Source of the DNA: Klebsiella pneumoniae
GTDB taxonomy: Bacteria; Pseudomonadota; Gammaproteobacteria; Ga0077536
Assembly: GCA_945861225.1 (NCBI GenBank)
Contig: CAMATU010000011.1
Span: 1 to 38,525, forward strand
Direction: 5' to 3'
Length of the DNA stretch: 38,525 nucleotides
The notes below the pieces were generated by a model, which was not told where the DNA came from, did not search any database, and saw only the letters and a program-made list of their open reading frames with translations. Position numbers and translations under genes: made by a program. Below, piece by piece: positions 6,949 through 13,930 of this stretch. Each line of letters starts with the position of its first letter. Within the stretch, counting starts at the first letter, position 1.

Positions 6949-7879
6949 ATTGATCCTGCACCATTACGACGAAGCCCCGTTCGCCGAGAAGATCCGCCTG
7001 ATCTTCGGGATTAAACAGCTGGCCTGGCGCTCGGTCATTCAACCCTCGGCGATGCCGAAACCTGACCTGCTGCCTTTGACCGGCGGTTACCGCCGCACCC
7101 CGGTCATGCAAATCGGCGCGGATATCTATTGCGACACGCAACTTATTGCGGCGGTATTGGAAGCGGAATTTCCGCTCCCCTCAATTTTCCCGGACGACAA
7201 CCCAGGGCTTGGCTACGCGCTAGGAAGCTGGGCACACGGCCCCTATGTAGTGACCTCGGTTGCGATCTACATGGGCAGCGACGATCCGTTTTCCGGCGGC
7301 TTGAATCTTCCGGCTCACTTTCACGAAGACCGCAAAAAAATGTGGAAGACTCAATTTGATACGGATTCACTCGGCCCGCGCCTGCCAGGCTATCGTTCAC
7401 AGTTGGATGCGCATACGGATTTTCTCAATATGCAGCTCGCGGACGGCCGCCGATTTTTGACCGGCGATAAACCAGGGCTGGTTGATCTCCACGCAATGTG
7501 GGATCCATGGTTTTTGTATCGGTTCGCGCCGACTGAAGCGGCGCGTGCGTATGGCCGCTTTCCGCGGATTGCCGAATGGATGGCGCGACTCGATGCCATC
7601 AAACATGGAACGCGGACGGAGATGGATCCCGCGGCGGCCTTGGCTATCGCGCGACATGCGCAGCCCAAACTGGCGACAGGCATCGATCCGCATGATCCGA
7701 TCGGGATCAAGGCTGGCGCACAGGTGGCGGTATCGCCCGTAGATTACGCCGAGGTCAGCGTGGTAGGCGCCTTAGTCGGCACCACGGTTAGCAGCGTTTC
7801 CGTTTGGCGTAAGGATCCGCAGGTAGGTGAAGTCGTCGTGCATTTTCCCAAGATAGGTTACCGGATCGATCCCGTCTGA
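6941..7879 (+). CDS. glutathione S-transferase family protein
   Basis: The protein has 312 residues. The N-terminal 80 residues form a thioredoxin-like GST domain (LILHHYDEAPFAEKIRLIFG, then the cis-Pro segment YRRTPVMQIG, then the glutathione-binding D-T pair in IYCDTQLI). A helical C-terminal GST domain follows, and an extra tail of about 80 residues beyond the normal GST length contains a small beta-rich region (HFPKIGYRI at the end). The ATG at 6941 overlaps the end of the upstream hydratase gene, so the two are probably translated together. It could be a detoxifying transferase or a glutathione-dependent isomerase; no experimental relative can be named. A strong hairpin follows the stop codon. 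Confidence 0.85.
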   Translation: MSELILHHYDEAPFAEKIRLIFGIKQLAWRSVIQPSAMPKPDLLPLTGGYRRTPVMQIGADIYCDTQLIAAVLEAEFPLPSIFPDDNPGLGYALGSWAHGPYVVTSVAIYMGSDDPFSGGLNLPAHFHEDRKKMWKTQFDTDSLGPRLPGYRSQLDAHTDFLNMQLADGRRFLTGDKPGLVDLHAMWDPWFLYRFAPTEAARAYGRFPRIAEWMARLDAIKHGTRTEMDPAAALAIARHAQPKLATGIDPHDPIGIKAGAQVAVSPVDYAEVSVVGALVGTTVSSVSVWRKDPQVGEVVVHFPKIGYRIDPV

Positions 7880-7900
7880 GTTGCCGTCAGCCGCTTGATG

Positions 7901-7932
7901 CGAACCGATCAGCGAAGGTGCTGATCGGTTCG
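7901..7932. terminator. bidirectional hairpin terminator
   Basis: A perfect 12-bp inverted repeat (7901-7912 with 7921-7932) with an 8-nt loop sits between the convergent GST-like gene and the AhpD-like gene. There is no long T-run, so rho-independent function is inferred from location and stem strength only. Confidence 0.6.
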
Positions 7933-7953
7933 TCCTTACCCGCCACTGCTCAC

Positions 7954-8511
7954 TTAGTGCGTAAACGACAGCGGACAGGGTTCGCCCACGCCCTCCAGTC
8001 CTGTGGCATAGACCAAGCGCCCGTAGCCAACAAAAATCGCCATCCGCCAGCCCAGCGCCATGATTTGGCGTTCGCTGTAATGACGGCGTAACTCGTCGAA
8101 CAACGCCTGTGATACCGAACGATGGTCACCGGCCATCACCTCAGCGAACTTCAGGGCGGCCTTCTCGGCCGGCGTGAACAGCTCACTGTCTGCGAATCTT
8201 GGCAACGCCTTAATCATCTCATCGGTCAAACCCTGACACCTCGCCGAGGCATACACGGCTTTCATTCAGAGACTGCATTGATTGATCTGCGCGACCTTAT
8301 GGCGCACCAGCTCGGTCATCTTGATACTGATGCCATCGCTGTCGGCCATGATGTGCTCGTAATAGAACTTAACGAAGTGGCGATAGAGATCCGGGGTTTG
8401 AGCGAACACCTGGATCCATTCCGAGCCGCCGAGCGCGGCATCGCTTTCCTGCATCGTCTTCTGTAGATCTGGGTGCACTTCCTCAAAAGGCACCTTGCTG
8501 ATTCGGAGCAT
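7954..8511 (-). CDS. AhpD-like/carboxymuconolactone decarboxylase family protein, candidate selenoprotein (CxxU)
   Basis: One open frame of 185 residues is interrupted only by a TGA at codon 82 (8268-8266). Before it comes ELVRHKVAQINQCSL and after it MKAVYASARCQGL, both in the same frame. This is the peroxidase-type CMD/AhpD signature E-x11-C-x2-C, with Glu67, Cys79 and the TGA exactly at the second Cys position, giving C79-S-L-U82. Family members use this dithiol to reduce peroxides. The usual His four residues after the second Cys is Val here. The start has a strong AAGGAG site and the rest of the frame is intact, which argues against simple decay. The alternative is one TGC/TGT-to-TGA nonsense change, with possible re-initiation at the ATG right after the stop. 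Selenocysteine use is inferred; no sel genes are in the window. Confidence 0.75.
8232..8258 (-). promoter_or_regulatory. putative bacterial SECIS hairpin
   Basis: Directly downstream of the in-frame TGA the mRNA can form a hairpin. Counting the T of TGA as 1, bases 17-23 pair with 27-33 (two G.U and one U.G type pairs allowed) around a GGC loop at 24-26. Base U16 bulges, then 14-15 pair with 34-35 and 11-12 with 36-37. Known bacterial SECIS elements lie just after the UGA, with an apical loop about 16-37 bases away and a G among the first two loop bases; the E. coli fdhF element also has a bulged U at position 17. The pairing was done by eye. Confidence 0.5.
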
Positions 8512-8896
8512 GCGTCGTTCTCCTTCTGGTAGTTACCCCCTCACTTATAGTTCATGAGCTAGAGGTTTGAAAGCGACGTTGCACTTATGGCTGGTGCGTC
8601 TCCCCCTGGTATTACGGGCTCAATCAAGGTCCGATCATTTTGCTGATTGAAAATTATCGTACGGAGTTCTTAATGGCAATTGATGCGAAAGTGTCCATAC
8701 ATCGCTAACGGTTTGCGGCGAGCGGGTTTCACGGGAGGTTGGTTATAAGCCGGTTGCCTTAATGTACGCCAACAGACAGAGCGCATGGATTCGAAAGCGG
8801 AGCATATCCAGTGCGCAAAATAATAGAGCGTGGTGCCCGATGTACTGCCGGTCCTGAAGACCAGGAAGCTTCTCGCCTCACCTTGAAGGAGACTCC
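8512..8896. other. intergenic region between divergent genes, no gene seen
   Basis: These 385 bases separate the AhpD-like gene (minus strand) and the universal stress gene (plus strand), so both promoters should lie here. No convincing ORF, RNA gene or regulator site was recognised. Confidence 0.5.
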
Positions 8897-13842: not shown

Positions 13843-13930
13843 AGCACCCCCTTCATGTGCCTTAAAGGAATCCGCGTCACGCCAGTAAGGTGCTGGCCGT
13901 TCGGTGATCAGCCTAGGCGCGGAGATTCGA

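Follow-up and report, generated by a model that had tools for sequence, protein, structure and literature searches.

A gene on the minus strand of the window (the whole 38,525-nucleotide stretch of DNA analysed) most probably encodes an AhpD-like selenoprotein (COG2128/YciW, CMD fold), in which UGA-82 would be read as selenocysteine (Sec) within a CxxU motif and Sec82 would form a redox pair with Cys79. We put the probability of this reading at about 0.88. Four independent tests lend it strong support: conservation of the TGA, a downstream hairpin, the presence of sel genes, and co-occurrence with SelB.

A single in-frame TGA at the second active-site position

When read from 8511 to 7954, the frame contains TGA at codon 82 as its sole internal stop (Table 1). 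The original prediction, which stated no strand, had described a 185-codon frame broken once at this codon, an E-x11-C-x2-C signature with the TGA on its second Cys, and an AAGGAG ribosome site, all of which we recovered on the minus strand, with Glu67, Cys79, and codon 82 placed as it had said. The plus strand of the same interval, once translated, was non-coding. Both gene halves contribute to one Pfam CMD domain (PF02627), whose match runs across the TGA (residues 40-124, 5.9e-12) and scores 45.9 bits against a cut-off of 23. Because a plain table-11 ORF call breaks the frame into two pieces at the active site, an intact selenoprotein gene of this kind is easily misannotated. The host genome is a MAG of 4.53 Mb, 88% complete. 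The inverted repeat beyond the 3′ end is a possible two-way terminator, with no obvious T run.

Table 1 Features of the predicted selenoprotein gene and its surroundings (window coordinates).
Feature	Position	Strand	Description or basis
AhpD-like (CMD fold) selenoprotein gene, predicted	7954..8511	-	185 codons, ATG start, TAA stop
In-frame TGA (predicted Sec82), second CxxU position	8266..8268	-	Homologue alignment
Cys79 (TGC), first CxxU residue	8275..8277	-	Invariant across alignment
Glu67 (GAG), E-x11-C position of AhpD motif	8311..8313	-	Invariant across alignment
Shine-Dalgarno AAGGAG, 8 nt upstream of ATG	8520..8525	-	Sequence
Bacterial SECIS-like hairpin	8228..8261	-	Covariation, synonymous-site constraint
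13-bp inverted repeat, loop GAAGGT, between the AhpD-like gene and a convergent GST gene	7901..7932		

Conservation of the TGA among homologues

Homologues were sought in the window's own genome and 57 related genomes, together with a scan of the genome contigs, and codon 82 was found to be either TGA or Cys. Every full-length relative at 70-90% identity carries TGA there and keeps Glu67 and Cys79; these relatives come from MAGs of Gammaproteobacteria and Binatota, and from one MAG each under the labels Alphaproteobacteria, Proteobacteria, and Desulfurellaceae, the Binatota set including OX638322.1, which is titled as a chromosome. TGA also occupies the equivalent position in a sister clade at 43-53% identity, to which belong another copy from the window's own genome (on contig C16) and additional ones from the Binatia chromosome. 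The only Cys homologue found in the clade (L026, genome G013, 48% identity) has TGC in place of TGA within one full-length frame. Where synonymous sites were unsaturated, dN/dS was ~0.10-0.17 downstream of the TGA vs. ~0.04-0.14 upstream; being low on both sides, it indicates that both gene halves are maintained as protein, in line with the earlier claim that both are preserved, and that the coding frame 3′ of the TGA is under purifying selection.

These patterns bear on two ways in which the TGA could be a true stop. The original prediction had named a nonsense change from TGC or TGT as the simplest rival, and a recent pseudogene or a misread codon would indeed fit a single TGA where a distant homologue has TGC. 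However, the same TGA recurs in independent assemblies, in every close homologue of full length, across several groups and including a chromosome-level assembly, while the low dN/dS past the TGA, the conserved hairpin, and the presence of sel genes weigh against error or decay as well. We therefore regard mutation or sequencing error as highly improbable, and as refuted by the conservation of the TGA.

The second possibility is that a first ORF ends at the TGA and translation restarts at the next ATG (TGA-ATG), yielding proteins of 81 and 103 amino acids. In most close homologues an ATG does directly follow the TGA, and plain ORF calling yields an ORF for the second half. Yet L058 has CAA after the TGA, the sister copies have ATT, ATA, ATC, or ACC, and the Cys homologue L026 is a single full-length frame; moreover, no Shine-Dalgarno-like stretch precedes the second ATG (CAATGCAGTCTCTGAATG), and a break here would separate the two active-site residues. 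Restart is thus very unlikely, and read-through of the TGA as Sec is the reading that we favour.

The subfamily is rare and patchy: of 274 genomes from the class, only 3 matched in a wide search at 1e-25, and of 148 from the phylum of the Binatota genome, only 1. We considered gene transfer between Binatota and Gammaproteobacteria, for which tree support was too weak to decide. Some family members are decaying: one copy (L030, G011:C12:75106-75453) is missing its N-terminal portion and carries Arg in place of Cys79, and another (L032, G021:C17:103846-104082) is a fragment of residues 104-182 with an internal TAA. Four TGA-bearing AhpD-like copies, with 29-78% identity to the window protein, lie on the Candidatus Binatia chromosome OX638322.1 (L051/G058).

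A SECIS-like hairpin downstream of the TGA

Just downstream of the TGA lies a hairpin whose inner stem of 7 pairs (8252-8236) closes on a GGC triloop 20 nt past the TGA, a small apical loop with the G that we adopted as the loop criterion for bacterial SECIS elements from PMC1088965. Across 9 distinct sequences, 89.7% of its cells were paired, vs. 34-46% in slid controls, with 6 double-change cells, and none of 500 shuffles matched the hairpin in percentage paired, double-change count, or covariation score. In two lineages (L049 and L023), one C-G pair has become U-A through a silent change at Ala88 coupled with an Arg91-to-Lys replacement. Codons 87-92 are also the most constrained synonymous sites of the gene, with a fraction of identical codons of 0.895 vs. 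0.536 overall (by permutation, p = 0.0068 when any codon window may count, and 0.0002 for these codons by themselves). The sister clade has a hairpin at a similar place with another sequence and AGTT or GGTC loops. Single-sequence folding energy was mostly not significant relative to synonymous shuffles, so that the case for a SECIS element rests on covariation and synonymous constraint; on these two lines of evidence, the hairpin at codons 87-92 is as expected for a bacterial SECIS.

Selenocysteine machinery in the host and co-occurrence with SelB

The original prediction had proposed a search for sel genes, and all four are present in the host genome: tRNA-Sec (selC; 70.9 bits vs. a cut-off of 47), selB (427 bits vs. 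242), and selA (515 bits) stand side by side on contig C26, and selD is on contig C2. This complement also argues against a genome-wide reading of TGA as another amino acid, such as Trp, to which the mere existence of an in-frame TGA could point. The homologous residue is Cys, not Trp, and TGA ends a neighbouring gene of the window as an ordinary stop (7877-7879), which refutes general recoding; we give it next to no weight.

SelB scored above cut-off in every one of the 12 genomes that contain a close homologue. More broadly, 23 SelB genomes had TGA-bearing matches, compared with none of the 12 SelB-less genomes with any match (Fisher 1.1e-6, kinship ignored), a count in which G015, whose SelB is split over two contigs, is treated as a SelB genome. 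No SelB was found in G013, the genome with the TGC form, which is listed as 100% complete. The clade therefore offers a natural experiment, with TGA where SelB is present and TGC where it is not.

Next to selA on the host contig, and divergent from it, is a distant AhpD-like CxxU gene (L018, G000:C26, ~7820-8390, plus strand) with a CMD domain (1.3e-11) and TGA at the second Cys. In G001, G002, G003, G005, and G016, weak TGA-bearing matches share a contig with SelB and lie no more than a few kb from it, which suggests that a sel-locus selenoprotein is conserved in related genomes.

Fold, active site and proposed mechanism

The AlphaFold model (pLDDT 89.2) has an AhpD-like fold, its best PDB matches being the peroxidase-related AhpD-like structures 6k40 (Z 19.5), 2oyo (19.1), and 2prr (18.3), followed by the debrominase Bmp8 (Z 17.6) and PA0269 (Z 16.6). 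The E-x11-C-x2-C/U motif is present as E67, C79, and U82. AhpD-like proteins have been described as using a five-residue proton relay of Glu, Cys, His/Tyr, Cys, and His, of which the two Cys and the final His do not vary within the family (PMC3141380). Glu67, Cys79, and Sec82 are kept in the window protein; the His/Tyr position is Leu81, and the invariant His four residues past the second Cys is replaced by Val86. This last position is Val, Leu, or Met within the clade of the window protein and Arg in the sister clade. Loss of the relay His is not strictly tied to Sec, because the Cys homologue L026 also lacks it, having Arg there. With two of five relay residues not conserved, AhpD-type peroxidase activity is not assured.

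In the mechanism that we propose, UGA at codon 82 would be decoded as Sec by SelB and tRNA-Sec, directed by the downstream hairpin; Sec82 would attack a hydroperoxide (or related oxidant), Cys79 would resolve the selenenic acid to an Se-S bridge, and a cellular dithiol system would re-reduce this bridge. Fold and motif make attack by Sec82, resolution by Cys79, a hydroperoxide substrate, and a dithiol reductant the most likely assignments, and hydroperoxide reduction by the product is likely. Since a selenol is ionised at neutral pH, the Sec form may manage without the proton relay through His that Cys-type AhpD uses, and Sec may in this way relax the need for a relay whose His positions are now Leu81 and Val86. 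For the original prediction of a Sec-containing peroxidase-type enzyme, this means that the Sec part is strongly supported, and that the peroxidase part is plausible from fold and motif, from which we infer substrate and activity.

The Sec protein could instead be a reductive dehalogenase or another selenol/thiol reductase, comparable to Bmp8, an AhpD-fold debrominase, or to deiodinase, a Sec enzyme. Bmp8 (6ohi/6ohj), at 21% identity, ranks among the nearest solved structures and matches the family profile at 1.1e-8, and the window protein lacks the relay His found in AhpD-like peroxidases. Bmp8 is, however, not nearer than 6k40, 2oyo, and 2prr, which are uncharacterised peroxidase-related proteins, and no halogen-related gene was identified nearby, so that we consider a non-peroxidase role unlikely. 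Also unlikely is the idea of an unnamed AhpD-like selenoprotein subfamily, gammaproteobacterial and Binatota, in which Sec takes over from the His-based proton relay and the substrate is possibly something other than simple hydroperoxides, as for example in a Sec-based reductive dehalogenase.

Gene neighbourhood

In the window, the putative selenoprotein gene has as neighbours a glutathione S-transferase-like gene and a universal stress protein gene, which say little about function because they are not conserved partners. No gene neighbour is common across clades, and no conserved operon partner points to an electron donor or a substrate; among the flanking genes are AMP-binding, S9 peptidase, beta-lactamase-like, and SDR genes. 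Elsewhere in the window, positions 13859-13923 on the minus strand match the Rfam int-alpA RNA (37.7 bits vs. a gathering threshold of 35.8), an element named for integrase/alpA genes, and a mobile element is possible nearby.

Comparison with known systems

By its sequence features, the window gene is an AhpD-like CxxU selenoprotein gene, a kind known since 2005, when such proteins were found in Sargasso Sea data (PMC1088965). GOS counts followed in 2008, with 299 (COG2128) and 70 (pfam02627) sequences (PMC2398784), and AhpD-like selenoproteins are listed in reviews (PMC9312934 and PMC13188914); the original prediction had rightly stated that such proteins are reported in metagenomic selenoproteome studies. 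The window gene shares with the Sargasso and GOS proteins a CMD/AhpD-type domain, the CxxU motif, a downstream SECIS-type hairpin, and the existence of Cys homologues. Judged against NCBIfam models, its subfamily differs from known AhpD-like selenoproteins in scoring below cut-off. The nearest model, NF053654 (YciW-related (seleno)protein), aligns over residues 1-153 at 2.9e-19 and gives 69.5 bits vs. a cut-off of 310, which places the window protein outside that equivalog; TIGR01926 (peroxidase-related enzyme) gives 49.9 bits vs. a curated cut-off of 81.8, i.e., related but below cut-off. As it reaches the cut-off of none of the NCBIfam models tested, the predicted subfamily is without an NCBIfam model or specific name there.

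Among Cys forms, PA0269 and M. tuberculosis AhpD (PMC3141380) have the same fold and the same E-x11-C-x2-[C/U] spacing, with a second Cys where the window protein would have Sec. The classical relay residues His132 (Tyr50 in PA0269) and His137 (His55) correspond to Leu81 and Val86. The selA-adjacent paralogue (G000:C26:7820 onward, plus strand), from the same genome and likewise AhpD-like with CxxU, is only ~22% identical and keeps the classical C-x-Y-U-xxx-H arrangement (C-H-Y-U-xxx-H), whereas the window protein is without the His. A single genome thus contains both a Sec paralogue that has the His and a Sec gene that lacks it, which lets one ask directly whether Sec makes the AhpD relay dispensable.
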